DNA from: Candidatus Woesebacteria bacterium
GTDB lineage: Bacteria > Patescibacteriota > Microgenomatia > UBA1406 > GWC2-37-13
DNA: 64,000 bases
Direction: 5' to 3'
NCBI GenBank assembly: GCA_020429045.1
Contig: JAGQLS010000002.1
Span: 1-64,000, forward strand
Part shown: piece by piece, positions 347-22,843 of the stretch
Position numbering within the stretch: position 1 is the first letter of the stretch
How the letters are laid out: every line of letters starts with the position of its first letter
Notes under the pieces: model-generated
Databases searched by the model: none
What the model was told of the DNA's origin: nothing
Seen by the model: only the letters and a program-made list of their open reading frames with translations
Position numbers and translations under genes: made by a program

Positions 347-401
347 CCAGATTACAAATATTCCAAACAATTATTAATTGCCTTTCAGGCTGAACAACAT
401 G

Positions 402-4247: not shown

Positions 4248-4835
4248 ATGACTAGTGAAAGTACTATTGTAGGATATTGGAGAGAATTAATTTCACAATT
4301 ATCGGATGAAGAGTTGATTGCCTATTCTAAAAATGGTCCTATAAGGAGAGTATTAGTTGAGGATATACTACCTCATCTAGCCTCACACCCTCAAGATGTA
4401 ATAGAAATTGGCGCATTATTTGCACCGTTAACATTAGAGTTGCCATGGCAAGTTTCAAGAGCTTTATTATTAGATCCAATATATAAAGTAAGAAAACCGC
4501 AGTTAAACTTGGATTTTTCAATTGAACTATCCGCATCCTATTTACCAGTAGGGTTAGAGCAAATATCGAACTGGTTGCAAAGACCTTCGCTAGTTGTACT
4601 AGAAAACGTACTTAATTATGTATCAAGAGATACAATTCAAAGATTGTTAGAAGATTCAAGAATTACTACAATAATTTTAGGAAATAATTCACAAGCTAGT
4701 TTCGGAGATATGCATCAAGAAAGACTGAGATCACCGATTGATATATTAGATTTATTAAGATCACAAAGATTTATAAATGAAGGAGAAATGTTTCAAACAG
4801 AAACTACACTAGCCGGGATTTTTGTAAGAAGATAA
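4248..4835 (+). CDS. Possible class I methyltransferase-fold protein
   Basis: 195 residues. DVIEIGALFAP (near residue 50) resembles the glycine-containing motif I of Rossmann-type SAM methyltransferases but has only one glycine. LLLDP follows, where an acidic residue after strand 2 is usual, and VVLENVLNYVSRDTIQRLL resembles the motif IV strand and helix. The match is weak, and the cofactor loop looks degenerate, so activity is doubtful. The ATG lies 7 bases after a -10-like TACAAT. The gene ends about 57 bases before the first junction of the cassette array and is the last gene to its left. Confidence 0.4.
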   Translation: MTSESTIVGYWRELISQLSDEELIAYSKNGPIRRVLVEDILPHLASHPQDVIEIGALFAPLTLELPWQVSRALLLDPIYKVRKPQLNLDFSIELSASYLPVGLEQISNWLQRPSLVVLENVLNYVSRDTIQRLLEDSRITTIILGNNSQASFGDMHQERLRSPIDILDLLRSQRFINEGEMFQTETTLAGIFVRR

Positions 4836-4857
4836 TTTATATATAGATATTTTTTTA

Positions 4858-5005
4858 CCCACTCCTCAATTCGAGTATCGTCCCATTGACGGAGCCAGAT
4901 GGGACGCTTAGGGTACAAAGCGTCCTTTTTTGTTGAATTGTCGGGAAATTTTCGATGTTCGAAAGTTTCTTTTTCCAAACCCTCCAAATTTTCCACTTTA
5001 GAACA
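4858..5005 (-). other. Left junction of the cassette array (attL-like), carrying a recombinase 3'-end fragment
   Basis: Bases 4892-5005 match 11065-11178 of the intact recombinase gene over 114 bp without gaps, with about 10 differences. The match starts at the GA dinucleotide 4892-4893. To the left of GA the sequence is different, although the minus-strand reading still keeps the spacing W-L-x-x-W-x7-W. I read this as X.Y, where X is the original chromosomal half-site and Y is the arm of the first cassette. CCAT lies 6-9 bases left of GA, as in the other three junctions. Confidence 0.7.
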
Positions 5006-5232
5006 CCGTGCCTGTCGGCGGCAGGCAGGAAAATGGTTACAGTGGCTCAGTGCTCGTGTTTGTCAGCAACTATAAATAGAAAGCTAAATAAAAATACCGG
5101 CAATCCGGCAAAAAGTAGTTGCTAATGCTTTCTATTATAGTTAACTATCATAGAAACCTACCAGATAGATCTAGTTGATAATATGTTTATTCCTTTGTAT
5201 TCTAAAGACATCAATTGGTAAGTAATGTTATT
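5006..5232. repeat. Non-coding lead-in of cassette A with a GC-rich palindromic repeat and an inverted repeat
   Basis: CCTGTCGGCGGCAGGCAGG (5011-5029) is a GC-rich partial palindrome in AT-rich DNA and is related to one at 22861-22877. Further on, GCAACTATAAATAGAAAGC (5066-5084) and GCTTTCTATTATAGTT (5127-5142) form an imperfect inverted repeat around a small CCGG-CAAT-CCGG element (5097-5108). The stretch may hold the promoter and operator of the HTH gene at 5233. No ORF was recognised. Confidence 0.4.
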
Positions 5233-5412
5233 ATGGAAAAACTCTTGAAACTCAAAGAAGCGGCGGAGATATTGAGCGTCCACCCCAACACCCTTCGACT
5301 TTGGGATCGCAAGGGTATTTTGGTGGCTGTGCGTATAGGTGAAAGGAAAATCAGACGCTATGAAATTTCAGCTATCAAGAGGTTCATTAAACAAAACAAT
5401 AATGAAAAATAA
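5233..5412 (+). CDS. MerR/excisionase-type helix-turn-helix protein
   Basis: 59 residues from ATG 5233; a TTG at 5215 in the same frame is less likely. The sequence LKLKEAAEILSVHPNTLRLW followed by DRKGILVAVRIGERKIRRYE is the classic single-domain winged HTH of the excisionase/MerR-like (HTH_17) family. The stop overlaps the methyltransferase start by 11 bases, so the two genes are translated together. Small HTH proteins in this position often control restriction-modification expression. Because it is also the first gene of a recombinase-built cassette, a role as directionality factor is an alternative. The family call is secure; the role is inferred. Confidence 0.75.
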   Translation: MEKLLKLKEAAEILSVHPNTLRLWDRKGILVAVRIGERKIRRYEISAIKRFIKQNNNEK

Positions 5413-6967
5413 TTTGACTTACAATACTAGTCCAAGCGAATATGCAGAGTCATTAGGCTCTGAGTTTGTTAGTCGCAAGTCAAAGAATGATATCTCATCC
5501 CTTGGTCAGTTTTTTACCCCAAAAGCCATAGCGGAAATGGTTGCCAATGATTTCGAAGAATGTTCAGCAAATGCAGTAAGAATTTTGGACCCTGGAGCAG
5601 GTAGTGGAATTCTTAGTTGTGCGCTTTGTGAAGCTATTGCTGGTTGGGATTCCAAACCCAAAAAAATTAAGCTATCTGCTTATGAAATAGATACTGAACT
5701 TGTTTCCGCGTTGAATGAAAGCCTAACTTATTTGAAAAAATGGCTGATCAAGCATGGTATTTCACTAGAGTTTGTTGTTCATCAAAAAGATTTTGTTCTG
5801 GAAAATGCTGAGGTACTTAACACATCACTTCAGCAGAGTTTGCTTGACTCGAAAAACTTTGAGGAATTTGACCTAATTGTTGCAAACCCACCATATTTTA
5901 AAATAGCAAAATCTGATCCTCGGGCAGTTGCTGCAACGCCGATCATTCACGGTCAGCCAAATATCTACGCCTTATTTATGGCTATTGCTGCTTATCTGCT
6001 GAAGGAGCGCGGACAGCTTGGTTTTATAACACCTCGTAGTTATGCCTCAGGATTATACTTTAAAAAGTTTCGTGAGAATTTCTTTGAGCAGATAATACCT
6101 CAGTCAATTCATATCTTCGAATCCAGAGATAAAGCTTTTGGAAAAGATGGTGTTTTACAAGAGAATGTGATCCTTCATGCACGGAAAGATAAGTCAATTG
6201 ATCGTGATAGCTTTGAAGTTGAAGTTTCTAGCTGTGATGGTTTATCAGATATAGCCAATTCAAAATCAATACTTATTCCACTAGAAGAGATCATCTCGTT
6301 AGAGAATGGTCATGTTTTACACATTCCCACCAAGGTTGAACAACGAGAAATTGTAAAGATTGTTAAATCTTGGAAATACAACTTGCATTCCCTCGGCTTT
6401 GAAGTTTCTACAGGTCCTATCGTAGCCTTTAGAGCTCGCGAGTTGCTCGATTCCGAAGATCTCGAGGATTCGAATGCTCCCTTGCTTTGGCTTCAAAATA
6501 TTAAGACCATGAAAGTATCTTGGCCTGTAAAATCGCGAAAACCTCAATATGTTAAGACTTCTCAGGAGGCTCAAAGACTCTTATTGCCAAACAATAATTA
6601 CGTTTTAATAAGAAGATTTAGTGCTAAGGAAGAGAAGAAAAGACTTGTTGCTGCTCCATTCATTTCTGAGGGTGGTAAATCAAAATTTGTTGGAATAGAA
6701 AATCACATTAACTACATTTACCGTAAAAATGGTAGTCTTTCAGATACTGAAGCTTTAGGTTTAGCAGCTGTTTTGAATAGTAGTTTGCTTGATGAGTACT
6801 TCCGAGTTTTTAGTGGTAACACACAAGTCAGTGCTACTGAGTTAAGAAACATTCCATTACCAGATCCAGACGTTATTGAAAGGATTGGCAAAACGATTAA
6901 AAATCGTACAATGGATCTTGTGGAAATTGATCAAAAAGTAACAAACTTAATAAGAGATTATGCCTAA
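5402..6967 (+). CDS. Type II N6-adenine DNA methyltransferase (PstI/Eco57I-like)
   Basis: About 521 residues from ATG 5402, overlapping the HTH gene. Motif I DPGAGSG is at residues 63-69 and the N6-adenine motif IV NPPY at 162-165. FFTP near residue 37 and the C-terminal target-recognition region (LWLQNIKTMKVSWP, later FRVFSGNTQVSATELR) fit the gamma-class, Eco57I/PstI-type enzymes. The gene downstream is a BsuBI/PstI-type endonuclease overlapping by 8 bases, so this enzyme should protect the cognate site by methylating adenine. In the characterised family the site is CTGCAG, but the specificity here is not proven. All key motifs are intact. Confidence 0.88.
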   Translation: MKNNLTYNTSPSEYAESLGSEFVSRKSKNDISSLGQFFTPKAIAEMVANDFEECSANAVRILDPGAGSGILSCALCEAIAGWDSKPKKIKLSAYEIDTELVSALNESLTYLKKWLIKHGISLEFVVHQKDFVLENAEVLNTSLQQSLLDSKNFEEFDLIVANPPYFKIAKSDPRAVAATPIIHGQPNIYALFMAIAAYLLKERGQLGFITPRSYASGLYFKKFRENFFEQIIPQSIHIFESRDKAFGKDGVLQENVILHARKDKSIDRDSFEVEVSSCDGLSDIANSKSILIPLEEIISLENGHVLHIPTKVEQREIVKIVKSWKYNLHSLGFEVSTGPIVAFRARELLDSEDLEDSNAPLLWLQNIKTMKVSWPVKSRKPQYVKTSQEAQRLLLPNNNYVLIRRFSAKEEKKRLVAAPFISEGGKSKFVGIENHINYIYRKNGSLSDTEALGLAAVLNSSLLDEYFRVFSGNTQVSATELRNIPLPDPDVIERIGKTIKNRTMDLVEIDQKVTNLIRDYA

Positions 6968-7916
6968 AAAAAGTCAAATCAATCAAAAAATTAATGAAGC
7001 TCAAGTCGTTTTGAAAGCTTTGGGACTTCCTCCTGCTCAACAAAACGATATGGCTGCTCTCACATTGCTTGCTCTAAGTGATTTAAGGCCTAGTTCTTCT
7101 TGGCAAGATGCTCAGAAACCCAGTTTGACAGTGTCAAAAGGAGTGATGGATTTTATTAGCCAAGAGTATAAGCGAGAATATGCACCTAATACCCGAGAAA
7201 CTGTGAGGAGACAAGTTTTGCACCAATTTGTTCAAGCATATGTGGCTCACTACAACCCAGACGATCCTACCTTACCAACGAATAGCCCGCGTGCTCACTA
7301 TGCTTTGACAGATGATGCATTGGCGGTTATCAAATCCTATGGTACATCTGGTTGGGAACTAATGCTAAAAAAATTTGAGTCACAACATGGGAAATTGGTA
7401 GAAACTTACAGGAAGAGAAGAAAACGAAATATGGTACCCATAACCATAGATGGTGGAGAAACACTTGAACTATCTCCAGGTAAACATAACGAAGTACAAG
7501 CTGCGGTCGTAGAAGAATTTGCACCAAGGTTTGCCCCAGGTTCTAAGCTCTTATATTTAGGAGATACTGCCAAGAAGAACCTTTATGTAAATGAAGAAGT
7601 ATTGGAAAAGCTAGGAATTCCTATTACAGAACACGACAAGTTGCCCGATATCGTTTTGTTTGATGAGAATAAGAGATGGCTTTACTTGATTGAGGTTGTT
7701 ACGTCACACGGACCAATGTCTCCCAAGAGAATGGTGGAGCTTGAAGAGATGCTTCAGAAATGTAGCGTTGGAAAAGTATATGTGACAGCTTTTCCTGATT
7801 TTTCAGAGTTTAGAAAACACACTTCCCATATCGCTTGGGAAACAGAAGTTTGGTTGGCAGAAATACCTGATCACATGATTCATTACAACGGTGACAGGTT
7901 TTACGGACCAAGATAA
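6960..7916 (+). CDS. BsuBI/PstI-family type II restriction endonuclease
   Basis: 318 residues, close to the family size. The C-terminal catalytic half contains DKLPDIVLFDENKRW (acidic residue at 230), LIEVVTSHGPMSPKR (Glu 245, His 250) and AFPDFSEFRKH, ending in AWETEVWLAEIPDHMIHYNGD. This run of motifs is characteristic of the BsuBI/PstI nucleases with a PD-(D/E)xK-like core. The N-terminal half (NTRETVRRQVLHQFVQA) matches the DNA-recognition region. It starts inside the methyltransferase stop region and is followed after a single base by the TrlF-like gene, forming one operon. The protein looks intact and active. Confidence 0.9.
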   Translation: MPKKSQINQKINEAQVVLKALGLPPAQQNDMAALTLLALSDLRPSSSWQDAQKPSLTVSKGVMDFISQEYKREYAPNTRETVRRQVLHQFVQAYVAHYNPDDPTLPTNSPRAHYALTDDALAVIKSYGTSGWELMLKKFESQHGKLVETYRKRRKRNMVPITIDGGETLELSPGKHNEVQAAVVEEFAPRFAPGSKLLYLGDTAKKNLYVNEEVLEKLGIPITEHDKLPDIVLFDENKRWLYLIEVVTSHGPMSPKRMVELEEMLQKCSVGKVYVTAFPDFSEFRKHTSHIAWETEVWLAEIPDHMIHYNGDRFYGPR

Positions 7917-7917
7917 T

Positions 7918-10896
7918 ATGCCAGATAATTTATACCCGAAAGGCTCAGAGTGGAGAAAGTGGGACCTGCATGTCCACACTCCCATGTCGATCATACAAAA
8001 TTATGGTGGTAATAATAATGCTGCCTGGGACGCTTTTATTCAAAAATTAGCATCTTTACCTCAAGAAATTAAAGTCATTGCTATTACTGATTATTTATTT
8101 TGTGATGGCTATGAACATTTGTTAACACGTAGGGATGAAATTCCTAATATTGATTTAATCATTCCCAATATAGAGTTCAGATTAAATACTTTTAGTGGTA
8201 CAGCCAACAATTCAAAACGGCATAACTTTCATGTTCTATTTGACTCTTCAATTGATGTTCAAGATATCAGAGACCAGCTTTTAAATGGACTTTCAACTGG
8301 ATACAAGATCCAGGATGGAACAGTGTGGCAACAAACGCCAACTACTCGCTCTTTGGAGGAACTTGGAAGACAAATAATGGCTGCTGCACCAGCAGATAAT
8401 TCCATACATAATAAATCTGATCTTGAAGTTGGTTTTGATAATATTACTTATAAACGGGAAGACATCGAGAAACTTCTAGAGAAAAATTGTTTCAAAGGTC
8501 GTTACATTACCGCTATTGGTTATTCTGAATGGGATCAATCAAGATGGGACCAATCAGCGGCTGAAAAACGAACACTAATAAATACAGCCCATTTTGCTCT
8601 TACAAGTTTGGATGACCCTTCTAAGATTGATGAGAATCGTAAAAACTTAGCAGAAAACAAACTCAACGACTTAGTCCTACATTCTTCCGATGCTCATTCA
8701 ATCGATCAGATAGGGAAAACGCTTCTTTGGATAAAAGCAGACCCCACGTTCGCTGGTTTAAAACAAGTTCTTAATGAGCCTTATGCACGAGTGTTTATAG
8801 GAGATACTCCCCCCAACCTCAAGCCTGAACATAAAGTTATTAAAAGCATATCAATTCCAGATTCTAAGGGATGGTTTAAAGATGGGTTTGAATTAGAGCT
8901 GAATCGAGACTTGATTACGATTATTGGTGGACGTGGATCAGGAAAGTCTGCATTAGTCGAAGCTATTGCTTATGGCTCAGGAAGTAAAGACGATAATGAA
9001 GAGGCGTTTTTAAAAAAGGCTTCAAAGCATAAGGATACGATAATAGGAACCCAAATTAATATTGAGTGGGGTGATGGTCAGAAAACTGATTTCAGAGTTG
9101 GCGATCTTATTACAGATCGCGGTCTTGTGCGATATCTTCCCCAAGGGGCTGTCGAAGAACTTTGCTCTCATCACAACAGTGCAAAACTACAATCACAAAT
9201 AGAGAACGTTATATTTCAGAAACTAGATGATACAGAGCGAATGGGCGCGTCAAACTTTAGTGAGCTTAAAAAGAGAATTTTAAGTAATTATCAGTATGAG
9301 AAAGAAGGGGTTGTTGAAAAACTTGGAGAGATTAACAGAAATCTGAGCAGTTTGATTGCCGTATTACAAAGTTTGCCCACAAAGAAAAAACAACTTGCAG
9401 AGAGAAAGGGTGAGCTCAAAAGATTAAACGATAGCCTTCCTAAATTGCCCGCAGAAGATAAAAAGGGTCAAGAAGAACTCGCGACATTACTTGAGATAAA
9501 GAAAAAGTTCCAAACTAAAATAGTCGCACTTCAGGGGAAATTAAGCAAAATAAGTGATGTAGAGACTAAGGTTAAGATATTCAAAACGAAAATTAGTGAG
9601 TTTAAGTCAGAAATAGGTTTATTGGTAGCAGATTTTGATGAAATCAAACCAGATGTTTTTGAGGTGAACTTTGACGAGGAAGCCATAAAAAAGTCTATTG
9701 ATGATGAAAAAATCAAAATAAGTACTCAACTTAAAACTCTGAGAGAAGGTAAGAAAGAAGACGTTGCAATTTTGTTGGAAATTGAGGAAAAAAGTCTAAC
9801 TTTTGACAATCTTCAAGATTTGAATAAAGGGATAGAAGATAAACAAAAAGAAACTAGGGCGTTTGAGACAATAAAATTGAAATATCAACAGCAAAAGAAA
9901 ACAATACTTTCGGTTGAAAGCTCCATTAAGGCTTTAGAAGGAGAAATTACTAGGATTAATACAGAGTCTACCTCTGAAAAACAGAGACTTGAAAAAGAAC
10001 GTCTCAGCGTATATGAGTCATATTTTGACCTTTTGAAAGAGGAAAAAGAAAAAATCGAAGAGTTGTATAAACCGTTACAAGACTCTTTAGCCTCGGGGAC
10101 CGATACTGACAGAAAATTGGTCTTTGAGGCTCAAATTAATTATCAACTCGAATCTCATAACAAAGCTGGCTTGGAGATTATTGATAGGTCTAGGAAGGGT
10201 AATTTCAGAGATTTGGAAGAATTAAGAAAAACTCTTGGTGATTTATGGGATGAATTTGCAAGAGAAGGCTTTAAGAACGATGTTTTAGAAACAAAACTTC
10301 AGAAGATTCTTGAAAAATTTTCAATCTTTGACGGCAAAGAAATATCCATTCTTGAGCAGTTAAGAGAGAATTATTCTTTGGAAGACTTTTTCAATTGGAT
10401 ATTTGACCCTACATATTTTGAGATTATTTCTTCACTAAAGTTTGATGATACGGATCTTTATGTGCTATCTCCTGGTCAAAAGGGAATTATTCTTTTGATT
10501 CTCTATTTAAAAATTGACGAAGATGATTATAGACCTTTAATTATTGATCAACCTGAAGAGAACTTAGACAATCTTTCAGTTTATAAAGATTTAATTGAGT
10601 ATTTTAGCGATAGGAAACAATATCGACAGATTATTATGGTTACCCATAATCCCAATCTTGTTGTAAACACGGACGCAGAACAAGTGGTGGTAGCTAATTA
10701 CAATGGTAAACGTGGCCCAAGACTTGAATATTGCTCTGGTTCGTTGGAAGACCAAGCTAAAAAGATACCTGATGTGGAAGTTGATGAATTTGAAAATGGG
10801 ATTATCGAACAAGTGTGTAACATTCTAGAGGGTGGCGAGCCTGCATTCTCGAAGCGGAAAAAGAAATATCAAATTTCAACTCGAAGTCAAATTTAA
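7918..10896 (+). CDS. TrlF-like protein: PHP domain fused to an SMC/ABC-type ATPase
   Basis: About 992 residues from ATG 7918, one base after the endonuclease stop. The N-terminal PHP-type metal site reads WDLHVHTP (about residues 13-20), with later metal-ligand candidates IAITDY and HSSDAHS. A Walker A GGRGSGKSA follows at about 337-345, then a long coiled coil (about 460-800), an ABC signature LSPGQKG, Walker B LIIDQPEENLDN (about 872-884) and an H-loop VTHNPN. This PHP plus SMC-like layout defines the TrlF group of large ATPases, often found next to restriction or defence genes. The likely role is ATP-gated nuclease or phosphoesterase action on invading nucleic acid; that role is inferred. 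Confidence 0.8.
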   Translation: MPDNLYPKGSEWRKWDLHVHTPMSIIQNYGGNNNAAWDAFIQKLASLPQEIKVIAITDYLFCDGYEHLLTRRDEIPNIDLIIPNIEFRLNTFSGTANNSKRHNFHVLFDSSIDVQDIRDQLLNGLSTGYKIQDGTVWQQTPTTRSLEELGRQIMAAAPADNSIHNKSDLEVGFDNITYKREDIEKLLEKNCFKGRYITAIGYSEWDQSRWDQSAAEKRTLINTAHFALTSLDDPSKIDENRKNLAENKLNDLVLHSSDAHSIDQIGKTLLWIKADPTFAGLKQVLNEPYARVFIGDTPPNLKPEHKVIKSISIPDSKGWFKDGFELELNRDLITIIGGRGSGKSALVEAIAYGSGSKDDNEEAFLKKASKHKDTIIGTQINIEWGDGQKTDFRVGDLITDRGLVRYLPQGAVEELCSHHNSAKLQSQIENVIFQKLDDTERMGASNFSELKKRILSNYQYEKEGVVEKLGEINRNLSSLIAVLQSLPTKKKQLAERKGELKRLNDSLPKLPAEDKKGQEELATLLEIKKKFQTKIVALQGKLSKISDVETKVKIFKTKISEFKSEIGLLVADFDEIKPDVFEVNFDEEAIKKSIDDEKIKISTQLKTLREGKKEDVAILLEIEEKSLTFDNLQDLNKGIEDKQKETRAFETIKLKYQQQKKTILSVESSIKALEGEITRINTESTSEKQRLEKERLSVYESYFDLLKEEKEKIEELYKPLQDSLASGTDTDRKLVFEAQINYQLESHNKAGLEIIDRSRKGNFRDLEELRKTLGDLWDEFAREGFKNDVLETKLQKILEKFSIFDGKEISILEQLRENYSLEDFFNWIFDPTYFEIISSLKFDDTDLYVLSPGQKGIILLILYLKIDEDDYRPLIIDQPEENLDNLSVYKDLIEYFSDRKQYRQIIMVTHNPNLVVNTDAEQVVVANYNGKRGPRLEYCSGSLEDQAKKIPDVEVDEFENGIIEQVCNILEGGEPAFSKRKKKYQISTRSQI

Positions 10897-10912
10897 ATTG
10901 TTTGGTTATAAG

Positions 10913-10941
10913 TGTTGACATCTCTTTTTTCAATGTCAACA
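10913..10941. terminator. Hairpin between the convergent trlF-like and recombinase genes
   Basis: Perfect 9-bp inverted repeat TGTTGACAT / ATGTCAACA with an 11-base T-rich loop. A third TTGACAT-like copy lies at 10955. It could be a weak bidirectional terminator or an operator; no clean T-tract follows the stem. Confidence 0.35.
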
Positions 10942-10968
10942 GAACCGTTAAATAGTTGACATTCGTCT

Positions 10969-12642
10969 TTAAGCTTGTAAAAACCTCCCCACTTCCTTCA
11001 CCGTCCACTCCGGATATTCCAGCTCGCTGACCCAATCAATTTTTCCGAATTCATACCATTTCTCGAGCCAGATGGGACGCTTAAGGCACAAAGCGTCCTT
11101 TTTTGTTGAAACATCGGGATTTTCGCGATGTTCGAAAGTTTCTTTTTCCAAACCCTTCAAATTTTCCACTTTAGAACAATTTGTCTGACTTACTGCCTCA
11201 GACAGTATCTTAAAGGCTCGGGAGTATTCCCAGCTGAGTTTGCCTTCATCTAAAATGAGTTTCTTGAAGACCAGCCTGATTAGGTCACGCTGTTCGTCCA
11301 ACATCTCCTTCTTTTTGGCGGAGAGGTAAATTTCTTTGGCACGTTGCGAGAGCTCGTAGAGGTTTATGCCGAGATTCAGGTAGCCAGTGCTGGCGGTGGA
11401 GTGCCTCTTTATGGTTTCGGTCAGTTCGTCTTTTTCCTTTGAATACTGTTTAAACTTGCGGTTGTAAAATTCCTGGGTGATTTTTTCATCGAGTTTGTCA
11501 TCGTATAACTTATCCATTCTCCTGGAAACTGCCTCGTAGCGGGTTTCTAACTCGCCCACAGTGCTGTTGTGGTACTCGACTTCGTCCCGATGGCTCTCTT
11601 TGAGCGCCTTCTTAAGCCACTCGGTGATTCTTTTATTCTTAATCCTCAGGTTTTCAAAGCCAGCTAAGAGTTGGTCCTCAGTGCCTGGTTCTTTGACCCA
11701 AGTCTCCTGATCACATTCGTTGTAGTGGTTGCAGTGGCCGTAGCGATGGCCACTGTGAAGCTCCCAGGTGATTAGCCCTTTGCAGGTAGCGCAGCGGATT
11801 AAGCCTTTGAATAAGTAGCTATGTTTCATATAGGTGGGTGTGGTTTTGCTTTTAAGTAACTTCTGAACTTTGTCGAATACTTCTTTGCTGATTAATGGTT
11901 CCTGTTTGCCTTCGTAAATTTCATCATTCCATCTAATCTTACCCATATAAAAAGGATCCCGCAGCAGGGAGTGAGTGCGGCTGACTGCCAATTTGTTACC
12001 CTGAGGCGATCTCATGCCTTCTTTGTACATGGTGTTGGCTAGTTTCTTGATGGAATAGTCGCCGGAGGCGTAGAGTTCAAACATCTTAATGACCAGCTTG
12101 GAAGCACTTTCATCGATGATGTGGATCTTATGGCCGGTTTCACCGACAGTTTTATAACCAAGAGGAGGTCTAGTGGGTAACCAGCCCTGAGCCAGTTTTT
12201 CTTTTTGTCCCTTCTTAACGTTCTCGGAAAGCAGGCGGACATAATACTCGGCTGTGGCTACCTTGACCCTCCACATAAACCATTCGTGGGAGCGGGAGGA
12301 ATTGTGCAGGACACAGGCTTCTTTGGCTAGATGGATCTGGTGGTTTTCGCTTTCGGTGATCCATTGGTCAATAGTGGGAACATCAGAGAAGTTTCTGGTC
12401 AAACGGTCGGTAGTTTCAACAATGATGGCGCAGATATTCTGCTTCCTGACATAGGCGATCATTTCCTCAAAGACCTTACGTTGGCTTTTGCCTGCAGCTG
12501 ACTCGGAGATGGCAAAGACTTTTTTAACTTCCAAGCCTTGTTTGTCGCCATATTCTCGCAGGAACTTCTCCTGCGCCGGGAGGGAGTAGCCCGTTTCTTC
12601 CTGTTCTTTGCTGGAGACTCGGCAGAATATGACGCTTTTCAT
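10969..12642 (-). CDS. Large serine recombinase (site-specific integrase)
   Basis: 557 residues. The N-terminal resolvase domain has IFCRVSSKEQ with the catalytic serine near residue 10, then the TTDRLTRNF segment. A Recombinase domain (LPTRPPLGYKTVG, SRTHSLLRDPFYMGKIRWN) follows, with a zinc ribbon CATC...CNHYNEC and a long coiled coil (about 370-440). This is the layout of phage-type serine integrases. The last 33 or so codons lie left of the putative crossover dinucleotide at 11065-11066, so the C-terminus is encoded by the end of the neighbouring cassette. It shares an ATGA overlap with the small gene upstream. The catalytic motifs are intact. Confidence 0.93.
   Translation of the reverse strand: MKSVIFCRVSSKEQEETGYSLPAQEKFLREYGDKQGLEVKKVFAISESAAGKSQRKVFEEMIAYVRKQNICAIIVETTDRLTRNFSDVPTIDQWITESENHQIHLAKEACVLHNSSRSHEWFMWRVKVATAEYYVRLLSENVKKGQKEKLAQGWLPTRPPLGYKTVGETGHKIHIIDESASKLVIKMFELYASGDYSIKKLANTMYKEGMRSPQGNKLAVSRTHSLLRDPFYMGKIRWNDEIYEGKQEPLISKEVFDKVQKLLKSKTTPTYMKHSYLFKGLIRCATCKGLITWELHSGHRYGHCNHYNECDQETWVKEPGTEDQLLAGFENLRIKNKRITEWLKKALKESHRDEVEYHNSTVGELETRYEAVSRRMDKLYDDKLDEKITQEFYNRKFKQYSKEKDELTETIKRHSTASTGYLNLGINLYELSQRAKEIYLSAKKKEMLDEQRDLIRLVFKKLILDEGKLSWEYSRAFKILSEAVSQTNCSKVENLKGLEKETFEHRENPDVSTKKDALCLKRPIWLEKWYEFGKIDWVSELEYPEWTVKEVGRFLQA
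10978..11178 (-). other. Second junction of the cassette array, inside the recombinase 3' end
   Basis: The left arm (10978-11066) matches 21464-21552 without gaps and with about 5 differences. The right arm (11065-11178) matches 4892-5005. The two matches meet exactly at GA (11065-11066). An imperfect dyad, CCAT at 11056-11059 and ATGG at 11072-11075, is centred on this GA. A 2-bp asymmetric core with flanking dyad arms is what serine integrases use. Confidence 0.7.
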
Positions 12643-13082
12643 AGGCAGAGCTTTTTCAACACAACAACATATAGGTAACTCGAGGGAATATCAAATTGAA
12701 TCAGGACATTCCGCATATATTGGGCTATATACGGAATCAGGAGGAATGTGCTCAAAACCACCGACATCTTGCCGTTACATTGCCGACATTTTTCTTGGCT
12801 AATCTTCTCCAAAACCACCGAAGTAGCGCCGAAGCGCTGCCGAAGTGTTTTCAGGCTAAGAGCTCTAAAATCCGGTGAACTTTCAGTGAAGTGTTGGTGA
12901 ACCTTTTCCGTCCTATTTCTGTCCACCTTTTGTACACCCTGTTTAGCCTGAAAGTCTTCAAAATTCGCCCTCATTTTGCCCACCTTCTGCCCACCCAAAA
13001 AAGTTGACCAAGTTTTGACCAGGAATTGACCAAGCTTCCTTATAAGTTGTTCTGTTGGTTTTACTATTGATTTGTCTTTCAT
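12639..13082 (-). CDS. Hypothetical protein upstream of the recombinase
   Basis: 147 residues on the minus strand, overlapping the recombinase start by 4 bases (ATGA). It is rich in basic residues (KVGKMRANFEDFQAKQ, VDRNRTEKVHQHF), with one possible Cys pair (KCRQC) and a hydrophobic patch near the C-terminus. I do not recognise a family. The strand and overlap fit a co-transcribed gene, but the sequence is unusual enough that it may only be a leader region open by chance. Confidence 0.35.
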   Translation of the reverse strand: MKDKSIVKPTEQLIRKLGQFLVKTWSTFLGGQKVGKMRANFEDFQAKQGVQKVDRNRTEKVHQHFTESSPDFRALSLKTLRQRFGATSVVLEKISQEKCRQCNGKMSVVLSTFLLIPYIAQYMRNVLIQFDIPSSYLYVVVLKKLCL

Positions 13083-13112
13083 AAACGGCGCCGTTTTTTG
13101 TTAAATTTTTTG

Positions 13113-13613
13113 TTAAAAACTCCTTCTAGTTTGTTTATCGTCTTTCCGTGACGCAGCCATGTTTAATGAATCCAAGGTTTTAGCCTTAAGTTCTTTGAGT
13201 GCTTCCATTTGTTGTCGCCTATATGTGATGGTGGTGTCATGCGGAGCGAAGATAGTAATGATGTTTTGGTTGAGCTGATAACCATTGCTGGCAAAGAGGA
13301 ATTTGCCTTTAACTTTGTCTTTCTTCTTTCGAAAGACTTTTATTAAGGGCTCACCTTTAAAACGAGCTTTTTCCAAGGAAGCGATTCTTCTACTCACGCT
13401 AGCCACACTATTTAAACCAAGAATTTGTTTGAGTTTATTTTGAGAGGGATAACATTCGCCCTTTTTGTTCATGAAGACTGCCAAAGCAGTAAAGGTGTGC
13501 CATTGGTCAGCCGTGATCTGTGCCAAAAGAAGGTCTTTGAAAATAGGATTTCTACAGATTTGGAGGTACAGATTGTCTGCTGGTGGTTGTTGTTTTGACA
13601 TCTTCATTTTCAT
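13113..13613 (-). CDS. Helix-turn-helix (HTH_36-like) protein
   Basis: 166 residues. The central region DQWHTFTALAVFMNKKGECY followed by PSQNKLKQILGLNSVASVSR is the winged HTH seen in replication-initiator-like and phage-type HTH_36 proteins. The C-terminal part is basic (MAASRKDDKQTRRSF). It lies in a minus-strand run with two small genes upstream and the recombinase downstream, so it probably belongs to the mobility module. Roles in replication of an excised circle or in control of the recombinase are both possible. Several ATG codons open the frame; the exact start is uncertain. Confidence 0.6.
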   Translation of the reverse strand: MKMKMSKQQPPADNLYLQICRNPIFKDLLLAQITADQWHTFTALAVFMNKKGECYPSQNKLKQILGLNSVASVSRRIASLEKARFKGEPLIKVFRKKKDKVKGKFLFASNGYQLNQNIITIFAPHDTTITYRRQQMEALKELKAKTLDSLNMAASRKDDKQTRRSF

Positions 13614-13628
13614 TTATGGACCAGCTCT

Positions 13629-13784
13629 TTAAGAGCTGTTTGATTTAGCTTCAATCTTCATGGCCGCTTCTGCAAACTGAACCAAAGTAGTTGCCACTTC
13701 CATGACTTCAGCTAAAGTCAGCTTGATCCCGTAATCTTCTTCAATAATTTTCTTCAGCTCGAGTAGTAATTGTTGGCTTACCAT
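13629..13784 (-). CDS. Small hypothetical protein, 51 residues
   Basis: ATG at 13784-13782 encodes MVSQQLLLELKKIIEEDYGI, then KLTLAEVMEVATTLVQFAEA, ending in TAA at 13631-13629. The protein is acidic and helical. Its start overlaps the end of the DUF5659 gene by 7 bases, indicating translational coupling in the same minus-strand operon. No family is recognised; it may be a small partner of the DUF5659 protein. Confidence 0.5.
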   Translation of the reverse strand: MVSQQLLLELKKIIEEDYGIKLTLAEVMEVATTLVQFAEAAMKIEAKSNSS

Positions 13785-14032
13785 GGTCGTTTTTCGGCAT
13801 AGAGCCTGGCTTTGACATCACGTAACTGGTTGAAAAAGACTTGTGGGGAAACCTTGAGTTGGTGGGTGAAGTAGGAGTCAACTAAGCTTTCCAATTCCGG
13901 GGACCGCTGAAACACAAAAACCGCTTTGCGCGGGTTGGTTCGATCAATATCTGCAATGGGAAAGTTAAGGGAAATGGTGGTAGCGAGGGCAAGGTCGCTG
14001 GTAAGGTAAGTGGCAGGTTTTGCTTGTGACAT
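13778..14032 (-). CDS. DUF5659-like small protein
   Basis: 84 residues. TSDLALATTISLNFPIADID, NPRKAVFVFQRSPELESLV and a C-terminal FFNQLRDVKARLYAEK match the usual pattern of DUF5659 proteins, short factors that accompany mobile elements in Patescibacteria and other bacteria. It leads the minus-strand mobility operon (DUF5659, 51-residue protein, HTH_36 protein, hypothetical, recombinase). The biochemical function is unknown. Confidence 0.6.
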   Translation of the reverse strand: MSQAKPATYLTSDLALATTISLNFPIADIDRTNPRKAVFVFQRSPELESLVDSYFTHQLKVSPQVFFNQLRDVKARLYAEKRPW

Positions 14033-14179
14033 AAAAATTCAAATTGGAATTAACTATGTCTAGCCTAGCCGGGACCATATGTTTATCTCAATAAACTTTG
14101 TGGTGATTTATGTTTACTTTTGAAAACAAATAGTACTTGCTGTATGAAAAACTACGAATTTCGACTAAAATACATCTAG
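14033..14179. promoter_or_regulatory. Divergent region between the mobility operon and the SDR operon
   Basis: TAAAAT (14166-14171) lies 8 bases before the plus-strand ATG at 14180 and fits a leaderless start. The minus-strand promoter was not resolved. Confidence 0.35.
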
Positions 14180-14917
14180 ATGAAAAAAACTGCGTTAGTA
14201 ACTGGAATCTCAAGAGGGATTGGAAATGCAATAGCCCGGCAATTGGTTACAGATGGGTATTTTGTTATTGGCACTTACAAATCTTCTCAAAAAGAAGCCG
14301 AATCTTTGAAAAACGAGGTTAAAGAAATTGAACTTTACCAGGTTGATTTCTCTGATCGACAGCAGACGCTAGATTTTGTAAAAGGCTTAAAAGATAGAAA
14401 GCTAGACGCCTTGGTTAACAACGCTGGGATTATTGAGTTTGAAGCGTTTGACAAGGTGTCTTATGACACCTGGGATCAGATTTTCGAAGTCAATCTGAAT
14501 ACTCCCTTTATTCTTTCCCATGGTTTGCGCAAGAACTTTAATGAAGGTTCAACAATTGTGAATATTGCAAGCACTGACGGGATGACCGGCGCGTTTGTAA
14601 GTATGTCCTACTCTGCAAGTAAAGCTGCTCTTATAAACCTTACTAAAAGTTTGGGGAATGTTTTCGGGAAGAATGGGATTAGAGTTGTAGCAATAGCCCC
14701 TGGTTGGGTTGGCAGTGGTATGGATTCACCAGCCATAAAGGAAGCGATGGAAAACAATCCACTAGGTAGAAATGCTGAAACTAAAGAGATTGCAAATGCC
14801 GTTTCGTTTGTATTATCACCCAAAGCAAGTTTTATTAATGGACAGACTATCGTGGTTGATGGTGGTTATACCAATGTTGATCCAATTTTGAAGAAAGAAG
14901 CAGAGGCAACCGAATAA
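14180..14917 (+). CDS. Short-chain dehydrogenase/reductase (FabG-like SDR)
   Basis: 245 residues, the classical SDR length. It has the NAD(P)-binding TGISRGIG near residue 8, NNAG near 78, a catalytic Ser in the NIASTDG region, YSASK near 150 and a PGWV segment. These residues make it an active-looking reductase of small carbonyl substrates. The exact substrate is not evident, since no acyl carrier or fatty-acid genes surround it. It is followed after a single base by a DMT permease and likely forms an operon with it. It is cargo of cassette B. Confidence 0.85.
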   Translation: MKKTALVTGISRGIGNAIARQLVTDGYFVIGTYKSSQKEAESLKNEVKEIELYQVDFSDRQQTLDFVKGLKDRKLDALVNNAGIIEFEAFDKVSYDTWDQIFEVNLNTPFILSHGLRKNFNEGSTIVNIASTDGMTGAFVSMSYSASKAALINLTKSLGNVFGKNGIRVVAIAPGWVGSGMDSPAIKEAMENNPLGRNAETKEIANAVSFVLSPKASFINGQTIVVDGGYTNVDPILKKEAEATE

Positions 14918-14918
14918 T

Positions 14919-15827
14919 ATGAATCAAACTAAAGGCTTTTTAGCTCTAGTATCTACTGCCGCTATATTGGGAACTTTTGGGGTTCTCATTCGGGAGTTGG
15001 CAAAAACATTCAGTGATCCTGGTCAGGTTTTTGCACGTTCGCTTTTCGCAACTCTGATTATTGCTTTGGTCGTCCTTTACAAGAAGATTAACCCCTTAGA
15101 TATAGGAAAGAAAAACTTGAAATATGTTCTTGCCTTTAGTGTTGTTTTTCCGCTATCCATCCTTTGCTTCACTGTCTCTGCAAACCTTATTAAAGTAACA
15201 AATAGCTTGTTTATGCTCTATGTTGGTAGTTTAGTATCAACAGCAATTTTTGGAAGAGTGTTATTTAAAGAAAAATTCACACTCAAACATATTGCCGCTT
15301 TGGTCTTAGTTTTTATTGGTTTAAGTTTCTTCGTCTACCCCTTTAGTGTTGAGTCAATAACTCTGGGGCTTGTGTTGGGATTGTTCTCGGGAATATTTGA
15401 AGGCTCAAGCCATACACTTCGTAAACTAATGAAAGATGTTAAAAGAGAAGTGGTTGTGTTTTATCAGAGTTTGTCTGGGGTGATTCTAGCTTCTGGACTG
15501 CTTTTGTTTAGCAATGAAGTTTTTATTAAGGAATTTCACTTAAGCGCAATCTTTGTGGCTTTGTTGTTTGGACTCCTTCTTGTTTCAATTGGTTATCTGC
15601 TCGTTTACGGGTTTGGAAACTTTGATGTAAATTGGGGAACAATTATTCTTGCAACGGAACTGTTTTTCGCAATAGTGATTAATTCGGTTTTCTTAAAGGA
15701 GTATCCTACTTCCTACGAATTAATTGGTGGGCTATTGATATTCTCTGGAACGGCAATCACTACCTTAAAGTTAAACAAGGGTAATAAAAAAGCCATGGAG
15801 AAAAAGAAAACAGCAGTATCTTCCTAA
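14919..15827 (+). CDS. DMT-superfamily (EamA) permease
   Basis: 302 residues with about ten hydrophobic segments arranged as two EamA repeats and a basic C-terminal tail (NKGNKKAMEKKK). Proteins of this kind move small metabolites across the cytoplasmic membrane. The start follows the SDR stop by one base, so a metabolite made or consumed by the SDR could be its substrate; that is inference. The 3' end overlaps the convergent XRE gene by 4 bases. Confidence 0.8.
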   Translation: MNQTKGFLALVSTAAILGTFGVLIRELAKTFSDPGQVFARSLFATLIIALVVLYKKINPLDIGKKNLKYVLAFSVVFPLSILCFTVSANLIKVTNSLFMLYVGSLVSTAIFGRVLFKEKFTLKHIAALVLVFIGLSFFVYPFSVESITLGLVLGLFSGIFEGSSHTLRKLMKDVKREVVVFYQSLSGVILASGLLLFSNEVFIKEFHLSAIFVALLFGLLLVSIGYLLVYGFGNFDVNWGTIILATELFFAIVINSVFLKEYPTSYELIGGLLIFSGTAITTLKLNKGNKKAMEKKKTAVSS

Positions 15828-16096
15828 AACTCAAATAAATCTCTGACTTTTACTTTCAAGCCTCTGGCGATTTTAATCAAATACCTAACTGAGGTATTTA
15901 CATAACCATTTTCAATCTTAGCAAGATACGAAACATTGCTAGCTGCTTTATAAGCCAGTTCTTCTTGGGTCATTCCTTTGCGTTCTCGAATCTTCTTGAT
16001 TGTGTCTCCTAGAAGTTCCCGCTCACGGAGAAATGGGTTGTCTTGAGCATATCCTCTCATGCTCAAATTGTTGCTATATTTGGAATGTATTACCAT
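15824..16096 (-). CDS. XRE-family HTH regulator
   Basis: 90 residues. The Cro/C1 HTH reads LGDTIKKIRERKGMTQEELA, then YLAKIENGYVNTSVRYLIKI. Nothing else is present beyond a short N-terminal extension. Its start codon sits on the edge of a perfect 14-bp palindrome (16096-16109), which makes autoregulation likely. It lies between the SDR/permease operon and the anchored-protein and STAND genes, so it may control the cargo of cassette B. Confidence 0.8.
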   Translation of the reverse strand: MVIHSKYSNNLSMRGYAQDNPFLRERELLGDTIKKIRERKGMTQEELAYKAASNVSYLAKIENGYVNTSVRYLIKIARGLKVKVRDLFEF

Positions 16097-16109
16097 TCTA
16101 TATATAGAA
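16096..16109. promoter_or_regulatory. Palindromic operator candidate at the XRE gene start
   Basis: TTCTATATATAGAA, a perfect palindrome touching the minus-strand ATG and lying in the promoter space between divergent genes. Confidence 0.5.
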
Positions 16110-16205
16110 AGATTGTGCTAAAATTAGCCTGGTAAGCAGTCGAATCTTGACTCCCTTTGCAAAGGAAGCTAACATCGGCAAACTTTGAAGCTGAAAGGCA
16201 AGCTT

Positions 16206-17054
16206 ATGAAGAAAAAATCAAATCGTTTTCCATTAATTCTGGGTATTGTCGCTATCTTGGGTTTGCTGGCTTGGGCTGGTTTAAGGATGCAGCATGGCGA
16301 CACTGTGGCTGAAACTAAGAAAGCTAATGAGATTGCTGAATTGGTGGCCACTATGGAAGCCAATCCAAATAAAGACTCCCAAGCTTATAAAGAAGCTCAA
16401 CAAAAGTTTTGTTTACTGACTGCCCGCTCTGCGCAGGAGCGTGAGCAAGCGGTGGTTAACATCCAGAAGTTTCTAGGATCCTCTGATATGCCTGTTGAGT
16501 TTTTATGTAGTCGTTTTAATGGCAAACCTGATGACAGTGGGACCGACTACACGAATCCTGCTTCAGAACATTACTCTGCTGGTGGATTTGGTTTTACTGT
16601 CGATCCCAATACCAACTACATTGTTGAAGTTGGCGAAGCTGAGCGTAGATGGGGTACTAATGACGATGATTCCCGTTGGTTTGATCCACAGCCTGAATAT
16701 GACAATACTCCCCGCTACACTACTGCCGAAGCCATCCGCCCGGTGGCAGAGCAATTCATGACAAAACATCAGGACATTCTTGGTGTTGATATCACTCAGA
16801 TGACCTACGAGTTTCAAGGTACTAAACCTGGCAACTTTTTTGTCAGGTGGGTAGATTATGAGGATCCTCACACAGAGGAATATGAGCAGTGTGGGGATGT
16901 GGGCCATGACCTGGAAACTGCCTATCAGCGTGCTGATGGTGTCTGGTGTGCTTCAATCAAAAATACCCGTTACCCAACTGTCAGCCTTACCATCACTCAA
17001 GGTGGCCAGGTGATTGTTTATGACAACGATGGCTGGGAGATAGAGAAACTATAA
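16206..17054 (+). CDS. Membrane-anchored hypothetical protein, possibly PepSY-like
   Basis: About 282 residues from ATG 16206, chosen because AAAGG precedes it at a good distance. A basic N-terminus (MKKKSNRF) and one hydrophobic segment (LILGIVAILGLLAWAGL) anchor the protein, with the rest outside the membrane. A Cys pair in the middle (residues near 74 and 106) and another late pair could form disulfides. The segment TTAEAIRPVAEQFMTKHQ, followed by a beta-rich stretch, faintly resembles PepSY-type domains. The function is unknown. Confidence 0.5.
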   Translation: MKKKSNRFPLILGIVAILGLLAWAGLRMQHGDTVAETKKANEIAELVATMEANPNKDSQAYKEAQQKFCLLTARSAQEREQAVVNIQKFLGSSDMPVEFLCSRFNGKPDDSGTDYTNPASEHYSAGGFGFTVDPNTNYIVEVGEAERRWGTNDDDSRWFDPQPEYDNTPRYTTAEAIRPVAEQFMTKHQDILGVDITQMTYEFQGTKPGNFFVRWVDYEDPHTEEYEQCGDVGHDLETAYQRADGVWCASIKNTRYPTVSLTITQGGQVIVYDNDGWEIEKL

Positions 17055-17112
17055 TCTTCCAACAGCTCCCCAAACAGGCGTTTTACTTATTCAGATTGGC
17101 TAACTATGCCAG

Positions 17113-17132
17113 GTGAGGCCGGAAAGCCTCAC
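17113..17132 (+). terminator. Stem-loop after the anchored-protein gene
   Basis: GTGAGGC / GCCTCAC, a perfect 7-bp stem with a CGGAAA loop, 58 bases after the stop. The downstream sequence has no T-tract, so it may stabilise the 3' end rather than terminate. Confidence 0.35.
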
Positions 17133-17201
17133 AAAAGCGGCCACAGGCGGTTACAAGCTGCAAACCCGGCTGATTGCCTTATGCTTTTGGTAAACTTCGA
17201 G

Positions 17202-17266
17202 TATAATTGAGATGAGGCTGATAGCTTGATGCGCCTCAACACCTGCCCTTAGTTGGGCTTTTTTTG
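17202..17266 (+). promoter_or_regulatory. Attenuator-like leader: promoter, hairpin and intrinsic terminator ahead of the STAND gene
   Basis: TATAAT (17202-17207) is followed by a hairpin TGAGGC / GCCTCA (17213-17218, 17233-17238) and then GCCC-TTAGTT-GGGC with seven T's (17245-17265). Transcription from this -10 would give an RNA of about 50 bases that stops before the big gene. No clear -35 is visible. It could be a small RNA or a leader where read-through switches on the STAND gene. Confidence 0.5.
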
Positions 17267-17309
17267 TATGAATTTAATACTCTGGGTAACCGGGATTTAT
17301 GTTAATTAT

Positions 17310-20300
17310 ATGAAGAAAAACAAATTTACTGATCAAACTTGGGCAACAAGTCATTTTGAGAAAGTTTCAAATAAGGCTGGACCTCGATACACACCAAAAC
17401 TAAATGTCGATTTACCCATAGCAGAAATATTTGATGGTATAAGTCGCACCGGGCGATTTTATAAATCTTTAAGAACTCACTACGGGAAATTAAGCCGAGA
17501 ATTTAACCGTGTCTCTTCAAAAAATGAGAATAAAGAGGTACAGAGTCTTTATAAAAATTTTAGAAAGGAAACACTCGATTTATTCAGCCTCTTAGAACAG
17601 CAGAAAGAATATTGTACTGATTTGATCCCTTGGAAAAAAATCAAAAATAGATCGAGTAAGGCCCTTAACATTTCTTGGGAATTATCAAGTAAGCTTAGGG
17701 AAGAAAAAGAGAGGTTAGAAAAGACAACCAAGTCTCAAGATTCTCAGAAAACTCCGTCACAAGATTTAGGTTCTGATATTCATTACCTTTATGAGTGTCA
17801 AAAAGAACTTAGATATTTTCAAGAGCTATCGACAAGTACAAAGGCGGGATTGGCTAATAACCCATTTTTGTTACTGACTGGGATAGCAGGAACAGGAAAA
17901 ACACATCTTCTTTGTGATGTCCTTAAAGGTCGTTTAACAGGAGAGGACATAAGTCCATCTGTTATGTGCTTTGGGGAGCATTTTAAGTCAGGGGAAGATT
18001 TACTTAATCAGATTTCACATCAGTCTGGAGTTAAACTGGATCAAAAGCACTTTCTAAAATGTTTGGACTTTTCTGCTAGAAAAAATAAAAGCAGAGCGCT
18101 GCTCATAGTTGATGCTTTAAATGAAACTAGAATAAATAATTTTTGGAAAACTCACCTTCCTGCTTTGATCTCAGAAGTGAAACGATATCCTAATATTGCA
18201 TTAGTTGTTAGTTGTAGGACTGGATTCGAAAAAGAAGTCATGACTGCGAAAACTTCTAAAGAGTTTGTAAAAGAAGATCATCCGGGCTTTCGCTTCAAAG
18301 AATGGGAGGCCATCAGTAAGTTCTTTCATGAATTCAAGCTACCCTTACCAGAAATCCCCCTTTTAACTCCAGAATTTCAAAATCCCTTATTTCTTCTTCT
18401 ATTTTGTAAGGCTTTTCAAAACAGAAAAAACAAAAATAAGAAGCAAGTTTTCAAAGGGCATGAAGGTGCTACGTATATTTTTGAATCTTTTGTAGATAGC
18501 GTATCTAAAAAAATAGCCAAGCAATTCAGTATTAGCAATAGCCCAGGAAGTAATATCTGGGATTGTATTATTGAAAAGGTTGCTGAGGAAATGGTTAATA
18601 GCAATGATGAAAGAATTTCAGAGGACCAATTATCAGAAATAATTGCTAAGGCTTATCCTCAGGTTAGTAAAAGTGATCTTATTCAGAGTTTGGAAAGGAA
18701 TCTACTAATTGTTAAAACTCCTAGATATTCTACAGAAAAGCAAAAGTATGAGGGTTATGATTTTAGGTTTCCTTTCCAAAAGTTTAGTGATCACTTAATA
18801 GGTAGATATCTTTTTAAAAACTACGAAGGTGAATTTAGCAAAAAAAATAAAAATTTAAATACTGCAAAAAAATTCTTCTCTAGACGTAGGAGGATCGGGA
18901 AGTTTTTGTTTAATTCCTGGAACAAAGGTATTGTAGAAGCACTATCTATTCAATGCCCGGAACAGTTAAGGGGTATAGAGTTTTTTGAAGTAGCTCCCTA
19001 TTTAAACGGGAAATCATTACTTCCTGAAGCTTTTGTTGAAAGTGTTATATGGCGTAGACCAGACGCCTTTTCTGGTGACTTAAAAAAAGTTAAAGAATTT
19101 GTCAATTCAGAAATAATAACAACAGAATCTGGGCACCATAGTTTTTTAAATGCGTTGCTCTCTGTTGCTCCTATCCCATCCCATCCTTTCAATTCGCTGT
19201 TTTTACACAGACATCTTTCTAGATTTTCTATGGCAGAACGCGATTCTTGGTGGTCAACTTTCTTGCATTATCAGAATGGTGAACAAGAAGCAGTGGACAG
19301 ATTAGTTGAGTGGAGTTGGTCCGATCAAAGCAAATCAAACATAAGTGATGATTCTATTTTACTCTGTTCGATCGCGTTGGCTTGGTTTTTAACCACTCCT
19401 AATAGGTTTTTGAGAGATAAAAGCACTAAAGCACTTGTAACTCTTTTGACTAATAGATTGAATGTTGTACTCAATTTGCTCAAAATATTTAAAGACGTTA
19501 ATGACCCATATGTTTCTGAACGTATTTATGCGGTGGCCTATGGTGTGGCGTTAAGATCTAGAAAGGAGAAGATGGAGCTCAAAGCACTGTCTATGTGGAT
19601 TTACAATAATCATTTTAAGAATGGAAATCCTCCTGTTCATATACTACAACGTGACTATACCAGAGGAGTGATACATGTAGCTTTAAATGAGGGTATTAAA
19701 TTAAAAATCAGTCAAAATAAAATTAACCCTCCATTTGGTAGTTCATGGCCAAAGAGAGTGCCTACTGAAAAGTACCTTAAGAAGAAATATTATCCGGAAA
19801 AATTTTTTAAGGATAAGAGTGAAAATCGTGGATTTTTAGATATATGGTCATCAGTGATGTATAGCTTTGGCTCATTAGCGGATTTTGGTAACTATGTTTT
19901 GGGCTCAGCTGTAAATCATTGGTCAGGAAGAAGACTTAACTCGCAAGAAGTTCATAGAAAATCAATTTATGAAAAGTTTAAAAAAAGCCTTACTAAAGAT
20001 CAATTAAAACTGTTGGAAATGGCAACTAATCCTTTCTATGGAATAGATTTTTCTAAAATTATGGATCATATAAAAATTGTTTCTTATGACAAACCAAAGG
20101 AAAAAGAAGAGCTTGAAAAGCAAGAGTTAGAAGAAAAGCAGGAAAGAGCAAAGACGATGAGTACGTTTCTAAAATCTTTGCCGGATAAGAGGAGAGCGTT
20201 TTTCAAGAAGGAAATAAAACCTTTTCTAGATGATAGGGGGAGCATAAACGATCCTTTAGAAAGATTTAATCCAGGGTTGGCTCAAAGATGGCTTTTCAAC

Positions 20301-21458: not shown

Positions 21459-21463
21459 AAGGC

Positions 21464-21552
21464 TAAAAACCTCCCCGCTTCCTTTACTGTCCATTCCGGA
21501 TATTCCAGCTCGCTGACCCAGTCAATTTTTCCGAATTCATACCATTTCTCGA
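21464..21552 (-). other. Third junction of the cassette array, with recombinase C-terminal codons
   Basis: 89 bp match 10978-11066 without gaps at about 94% identity and stop matching at GA (21551-21552). On the minus strand they encode a C-terminus like that of the recombinase (KIDWVSELEYPEWTVKE). Right of GA the sequence is unrelated to the recombinase. This reads as the right arm of cassette B joined to the left arm of cassette C. Confidence 0.7.
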
Positions 21553-21610
21553 AGAGATCAACAGAAATCACCACAAAGTTACAATTACTGACATTCCCTA
21601 AATTAATCTC

Positions 21611-22105: not shown

Positions 22106-22113
22106 GATAAAAG

Positions 22114-22740: not shown

Positions 22741-22805
22741 AAGTAGAGTATATCATCGGAAAATAGTTTTTGATTATACTGAAAACTATTCTCAAATTGT
22801 TTTCA

Positions 22806-22834
22806 TTGACAGTGAAAACTTTTTATATTATAGT
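22806..22834 (+). promoter_or_regulatory. Promoter of the AAA/DUF4143 ATPase
   Basis: TTGACA (22806-22811), a 17-bp spacer and TATAGT (22829-22834), 9 bases before the ATG at 22844. GAAAACT occurs in direct repeat around it (22781 and 22814 regions), a possible regulator site. Confidence 0.5.
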
Positions 22835-22843
22835 AGATGAGGT

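Follow-up and report, generated by a model that had tools for sequence, protein, structure and literature searches.

A large serine recombinase whose gene carries the attachment site in its 3' end, and a C-terminal tail that integration at tRNA genes would exchange

The window, a 64,000-nucleotide stretch of a Candidatus Woesebacteria genome whose position 1 is the start of contig C22, holds a tandem array of elements A, B and C (Table 1). The cargo of element A, spread over 5339-10896, consists of a BsuBI/PstI-type restriction-modification pair and a 1001-aa AAA/SMC-like ATPase, which weakly resembles several defence ATPases and scores best against the PADLOC model Ppl. Element B carries a full-length Avs2 gene (17253-21458), which at its 3' end runs over the stop codon of the P' tail arm on the opposite strand. 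A search for tRNA genes within the window returned none. The genome's tRNA-Asn is found on another contig, C54, at a distance of 188 bp from the contig end, and carries an intron of ~249 nt; it is labelled Thr by ARAGORN, and its exons match tRNA-Asn at 97%. Judging from the two contig ends, C54 and C22 seem to be adjacent and split inside an IS200-like transposase gene, since the end of C54 and the first bases of the window resemble two halves of one such gene beside tRNA-Asn; the array therefore probably abuts tRNA-Asn. At the same place (C54 end, L180:3600-4464, and window 1-400), a GIY-YIG-like ORF is flanked on either side by a copy of the tRNA-Asn 5' end.

Table 1. Features of the tandem array, in window coordinates
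Feature	Position	Strand	Details
Decayed P' arm of a further element	4817..4891	-	RQWDDTRIEEW...; between window 1 and 4893, tRNA-Asn side
Remnant of element A recombinase 3' end	4892..5014	-	with P half-site (QARCSKVENLEGLEKETFEHRKFPDNSTKKDALYPKRPIWL)
Element A	4893..11066		6.2 kb; BsuBI/PstI-type restriction-modification, AAA/SMC-like ATPase; recombinase present as 3' remnant only
Large serine recombinase gene of element B, as read in the array	10969..12642	-	557 aa; ORF and translation
P' arm of element A, now the C-terminal tail of the element B recombinase	10969..11064	-	31 codons plus stop
Crossover dinucleotide	11065..11066	GA on +, TC on recombinase strand	inside Leu526 codon
P half-site of element B	11067..11110		inside recombinase gene
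Element B	11067..21552		10.5 kb; recombinase, small ORF, HTH_36 gene, SDR, EamA transporter, Avs2 antiviral STAND
147-aa ORF overlapping the recombinase start, and gene of a 166-aa HTH_36 protein	12639..13613	-	just upstream of recombinase; candidate accessory/RDF/replication genes
Element B's own P' arm	21455..21552	-	tail in free circle: EKWYEFGKIDWVSELEYPEWTVKEAGRFLAF, then stop
Element C	21553..24240		2.7 kb; recombinase gone; 164-aa ORF, PRiA4_ORF3-like, AAA_14/DUF4143 ATPase
P' arm of element C	24146..24240	-	KRWETFRNIDWLTYLEYPEFTTKEVNRFLNS, then stop; distal array end

The element B protein is a large serine recombinase (LSR). It matches PF00239 (E=2.7e-20) and PF07508 (E=6.7e-16) in Pfam, and its layout runs from the Resolvase and Recombinase domains through zinc-ribbon cysteines, a long coiled coil and a disordered linker to a helical tail. 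R8-V9-S10 is invariant in the alignment and supplies the catalytic Ser10, while C284, C287, C304 and C310 of the zinc ribbon are conserved; the resolvase domain with its nucleophilic serine, the Recombinase domain, the zinc ribbon and the coiled coil together place the protein among LSRs. In the AlphaFold model the coiled coil comprises helices 352-384 and 390-444, residues 491-527 are predicted to be a disordered linker, and the tail is modelled as helices 525-534, 537-540 and 544-556 with modest confidence (pLDDT 65-75; overall pTM 0.35). Foldseek matched the model to the LSR-att complexes of Bxb1, phiC31 and LI (E down to 1.5e-19), the TM-scores being low because domain placement is uncertain. 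The order of the small ORF and the HTH_36 gene is also found at one related locus, L035; a conserved RDF among these upstream genes was discarded as a candidate, as both are present in few close relatives only.

The crossover site can be read from two families of repeats. An arm of 89 bp at the 3' end of the recombinase gene (10978-11066) is repeated at 21464-21552 with 94% identity and, more diverged, at 24152-24240 (61% in DNA, 56-58% in protein), and the recombinase-side arm 11065-11178 is repeated at 4892-5005 with 91% identity. The sole overlap of the two families is the GA at 11065-11066. This dinucleotide is the core, for beyond the repeats it is supported by the breakpoint of homologues, the symmetry of attP and the covariation of the dinucleotide with tRNA isotype, which together rule out a core elsewhere. 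A first-pass annotation of this DNA had placed the crossover here, within the recombinase gene, about 33 codons before the stop; the position holds, as the repeat families meet and relatives diverge at that codon, whereas the distance from Leu526 to the stop is 31 residues. It had also proposed that the last residues of the integrated recombinase come from the neighbouring cassette and those of the free circle from the element's own right arm, and both proposals are borne out: the element A arm at 10969-11064 is the tail of the element B recombinase, and joining the right arm of element B (21464-21552) in silico to its recombinase gives an uninterrupted protein of 557 aa, which differs from the integrated form at three residues near the end (V->A, Q->A, A->F). 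Both arms encode the motif W-x-x-F-x-K-I-D-W...EYPEWTVKE in the same frame, the translations agreeing with what had been claimed. The predicted junction of the circle would read ...TGGCTC/GAGAAATGG... in frame.

To place this arrangement in a wider context, we scanned 84,980 species genomes and obtained 63 close loci, mostly from Patescibacteria; a few are on contigs labelled Micrarchaeota, Bacteroidetes, Simkania, Methanoperedens and Vampirovibrionales, among others, some of which may be misbinned. A comparison of recombinase tails across homologues, as the first-pass annotation had suggested, shows that in most full-length cases similarity breaks off at residue 526 or 528 of the query, also where the proteins are 95-96% identical. 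Past ...RPIWL most relatives' ORFs read PGLDSNQQP-stop, RE-stop-DSNLQP or similar, which is the antisense of a tRNA 3' half. With ARAGORN (introns allowed) and Rfam, a tRNA on the opposite strand was found to overlap the ORF 3' end at 49 of the 63 close loci and at 26 of 33 loci of more distant LSRs, which share roughly 25-33% identity, and sense-strand overlap at the ORF end occurred at none of these 63 and 33 loci. The targets are chiefly tRNA-Asn, some intron-bearing, with Gln, Asp, Ser, Thr, Gly and others also represented, the ARAGORN isotypes of intron-containing tRNAs being less certain. Introns of ~160-600 nt lie in the anticodon loop of several target tRNAs (L070, L073, L093, L096, L106, L107, L112, L114, L117 and L119), where the element still sits at the end of the 3' exon.

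Distant patescibacterial serine recombinases (L007-L034 and L059-L068, 25-33% identity) also end antisense within tRNA genes of many isotypes, and tRNA targeting may therefore be general for patescibacterial serine integrases. The Rfam LOOT RNA (RF03000) is found near two recombinase loci (L024:114-231 and L109:3405-3519). A viral or plasmid origin was rejected: there was one viral_contigs match, and plasmids and phages gave remote LSRs only, at no more than about 30% identity among the matches listed.

The other end of the element was located by searching with an arm profile, which placed the tail arm upstream of the recombinase, on the same strand and 6-11 kb away; tail arms without a recombinase were found at other places as well. 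Twelve two-ended elements have an intact recombinase (L078, L082, L089, L093, L115, L117, L118, L119, L120, L124, L127 and L128), with L106 (frameshift) and L123 (tRNA not adjacent) left out of the attP count. When their two ends were rejoined in silico, which is how all attP sequences were reconstructed, every one of the 12 gave an open, in-frame tail of 30-33 aa, and the core dinucleotides were identical at both ends in all 12. In the integrated state the tails are 2-13 aa in 10 of the 12, and two tRNA-Ser cases are longer (30 and 86 aa). The expectation that the frame is kept at junctions elsewhere thus holds for the rebuilt attP in 12/12, whereas integrated tails are mostly of 2-13 aa. Contigs were also checked for terminal overlaps that would mark them as circular, and there were none; a displaced original tRNA terminator was seen at attR in 2 of 12 elements, near background. 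At L119:718-2395 three consecutive P' arms lie within 1.7 kb, representing very short cassettes or solo sites stacked next to a single element, and the attR flank at L118:1460-1534 holds a piece of ~20 nt identical to part of tRNA-Asn, perhaps the remnant of another integration.

The core dinucleotide tracks the isotype of the tRNA (TC at tRNA-Asn, TG at tRNA-Gln and GG at tRNA-Ser), being the same in attL and in the far arm. When 54 attL junctions and 25 arms were compared, GATGGGACGA proved common to P and P', in inverted orientation on the two sides of the core. In the same set the motif TTCGAAC occupies +17-23 of the P' arms, and +12-18 is its position in the tRNA, of whose T-arm it is the antisense; the window's own arm has the variant TTCGGAA, shifted by about one base. 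For LI integrase a shift of the zinc-ribbon domain (ZD) by 5 bp is reported, with bp 16-24 in attP and bp 11-19 in attB (Rutherford et al. 2013, PMC3783163). The zinc-ribbon motif here is likewise 5 bp farther from the core in attP than in attB. Several kinds of information overlap in the P half: the TGGCTC ahead of the crossover encodes Trp-Leu and is the antisense of the tRNA end GAGCCA, and in the window the + strand of the P half-site gives GCCA followed by a hairpin (11074-11099) and U tract that resemble an intrinsic terminator. By folding, a terminator-like hairpin with a U tract is present on the antisense strand of the P half at 39 of 53 loci, against 33 of 159 controls; by a stem rule it is present at 33 of 53 loci with 23 distinct stems, against 136 of 1060 (antisense recombinase body) and 92 of 1060 controls. 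The disordered stretch 491-527 of the model would let the protein tolerate the constraints of tRNA end and terminator.

The detached arm evolves as coding sequence, as the first-pass annotation had supposed. Its distal codons (10-28) show an excess of third-position changes over 25 arms (permutation, p=2.5e-4 with all pairs included and p<=5e-5 with only those at least 55% identical), a test biased towards coding-like arms because most arms were found by protein profile. The excess is weaker in the proximal, DNA-binding part of the arm, and the closest pairs have pN/pS of 0.05-0.59. In the pair 11064/21550, for which DNA identity was the sole search criterion, 4 changes are synonymous and 1 is nonsynonymous. 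This constraint is best explained by a need of the excised circle for the arm.

We envision the following cycle for these elements. The attP of the LSR is part of the recombinase gene itself, close to its 3' end, and in the excised circle the recombinase would read through attP into a tail of 30-33 aa. Integration takes as its target the 3' end of an oppositely oriented tRNA gene, usually one for tRNA-Asn; the P half would remain on the recombinase gene and rebuild the tRNA end GAGCCA, mostly with a terminator hairpin after it, while the tail would be swapped for antisense tRNA, normally 2-13 codons, and the true tail would stay behind as the arm at the far end. Since attB is the antisense of a tRNA 3' end, integration would usually remove the tail and leave a short, meaningless one. 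In side-by-side insertion each recombinase would acquire its neighbour's arm and with it a near-normal tail, and it is because the window is a tandem array that the element B recombinase retains a neighbour's tail; by its sequence the window is the less common case, the usual target being a tRNA gene. Two claims of the first-pass annotation hold in part on this account: the target site doubles as coding sequence for tandem insertions like those of the window, not in general, where it is a tRNA 3' end, and integration does swap the C-terminus, although in most relatives one coding tail is not exchanged for another. A coding attB as the general target was rejected, most relatives sitting at tRNA genes.

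At the level of sequence, the comparisons establish the anatomy, the core, the tRNA target, the loss of the tail, its in-frame restoration and the coding constraint on the arm. We infer further that through the tail the enzyme depends on the state of the element, being complete in the circle and cut short at the tRNA, which would help to fix the direction of the reaction, and that a tandem insertion would re-arm the resident enzyme. Tail-less integrated enzymes may nevertheless be fully active, as Mx8 shows that an exchange of the tail does not have to inactivate an integrase. We give the explanation as a whole (an att-in-gene LSR array, insertion at tRNA genes, tail swap and a state-dependent enzyme) a probability of about 0.85. 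We hold at even odds the broader proposal of a widespread, mostly patescibacterial group of serine integrases that target tRNA genes through the T-arm motif, carry attP in the gene, combine codons, half-site, tRNA end and mostly a terminator in one stretch, and use the tailed and tail-less forms as a directionality toggle that tandem insertion can reset.

Whether the tail has a function is the point at which another reading has most to say. The tail could be functionless, attP merely overlapping the gene end and the arm being coding-like since the circle needs any open frame; at most loci the integrated enzymes lose the tail, yet the lineage persists, and where the recombinase is broken or missing (L106 and the arm at window 4891) the half-site is kept and the distal coding part has decayed, element C being an exception with its recombinase gone and an arm that still looks coding. 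We consider this unlikely, as a random open frame would not keep motifs and length, whereas the W..F..DW..YPE motifs and the length of 30-33 aa are kept across recombinases only about 45% identical, and the third-position excess and low pN/pS fall in distal codons beyond the roughly 25-bp half-site.

Somewhat more doubtful still is a switch that works through RNA or expression, in which the integrated mRNA would end in antisense tRNA against convergent tRNA transcription and the swap would silence the gene rather than change the isoform. That every tRNA overlap is antisense and none sense, and that the P half bears the tRNA terminator at most loci, fits such a switch, but the same terminators would shield the recombinase from read-through, and the conservation of the tail at the protein level would be left unexplained. 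That the repeats arose when cassettes recombined homologously or were duplicated in tandem, and not by site-specific recombination at the core, is largely refuted and highly improbable: although the window's arms, 91-94% identical, would be sufficient for homologous exchange, independent single-copy tRNA insertions in dozens of genomes share the same breakpoint dinucleotide, and the cores covary with tRNA isotype.

On the preferred reading of a tail exchanged at a tRNA gene, the tail would be a possible built-in state sensor for serine integrases, whose directionality has until now been explained by separate RDF proteins. The T-arm TTCGAAC and the isotype-specific core dinucleotide amount to a simple recognition logic, which hints at how targets are selected and how the enzymes could be redirected for genome engineering. 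Patescibacteria, with their small genomes, may gather defence cargo (Avs2, restriction-modification) beside tRNA in this way.

The LI/A118, Bxb1 and phiC31 integrases have the same domain order, Ser10, zinc ribbon, coiled coil and zinc-ribbon-motif spacing; unlike them, the present LSR has attP in its gene, tRNA targets and, apparently, a state-dependent C-terminus. SCC-type cassettes share with the present elements a serine recombinase, a tandem arrangement and defence or resistance cargo, but the target of SCC is a protein-coding gene, and the SCC recombinase gene does not contain the att site. Nor is the array an integron with attC sites, as a serine recombinase and P'/P half-sites stand in place of the IntI tyrosine recombinase and folded attC. 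SSV-type archaeal virus integrases likewise have attP inside the integrase gene and a tRNA target; they are tyrosine enzymes whose gene is split near the N-terminal part, whereas only the last 30 codons are exchanged here. As in islands of the Islander/TIGER type, the element is inserted at a tRNA 3' end, which it restores from its own sequence (TGGCTC being the antisense of GAGCCA). Such islands are expected to have tyrosine integrases, whereas Pfam finds serine recombinase domains here, and unlike theirs the present attB and attP share few bp and the 5-bp LSR spacing in place of a long block of identity. According to the Islander work (PMC4383910), no serine recombinase was known to use a tRNA gene as its target; dozens of serine integrases do so here.

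Mx8 and Mx9 likewise have attP inside the integrase gene, with a C-terminus that changes on integration. Mx8 Int is a tyrosine recombinase and the present enzyme, by Pfam, a serine recombinase; here, unlike in Mx8, a conserved helical tail is lost and the partner is an antisense tRNA gene. In Mx8, attP lies in the int coding sequence and integration creates a new 3' end with altered C-terminus and specificity, described as a switch (PMC6070905), and Islander cites Mx8 and SSV as integrases extending across attP (PMC4383910). Mx8 is the functional precedent for a tail that would alter activity by state. In the literature searched, with subscription papers mostly outside it, a serine integrase with attP in its own gene or with a tRNA target was unreported; within that literature the LSR form of att-in-integrase plus tRNA targeting is new for a serine recombinase, its precedent being the tyrosine integrase of phage Mx8.
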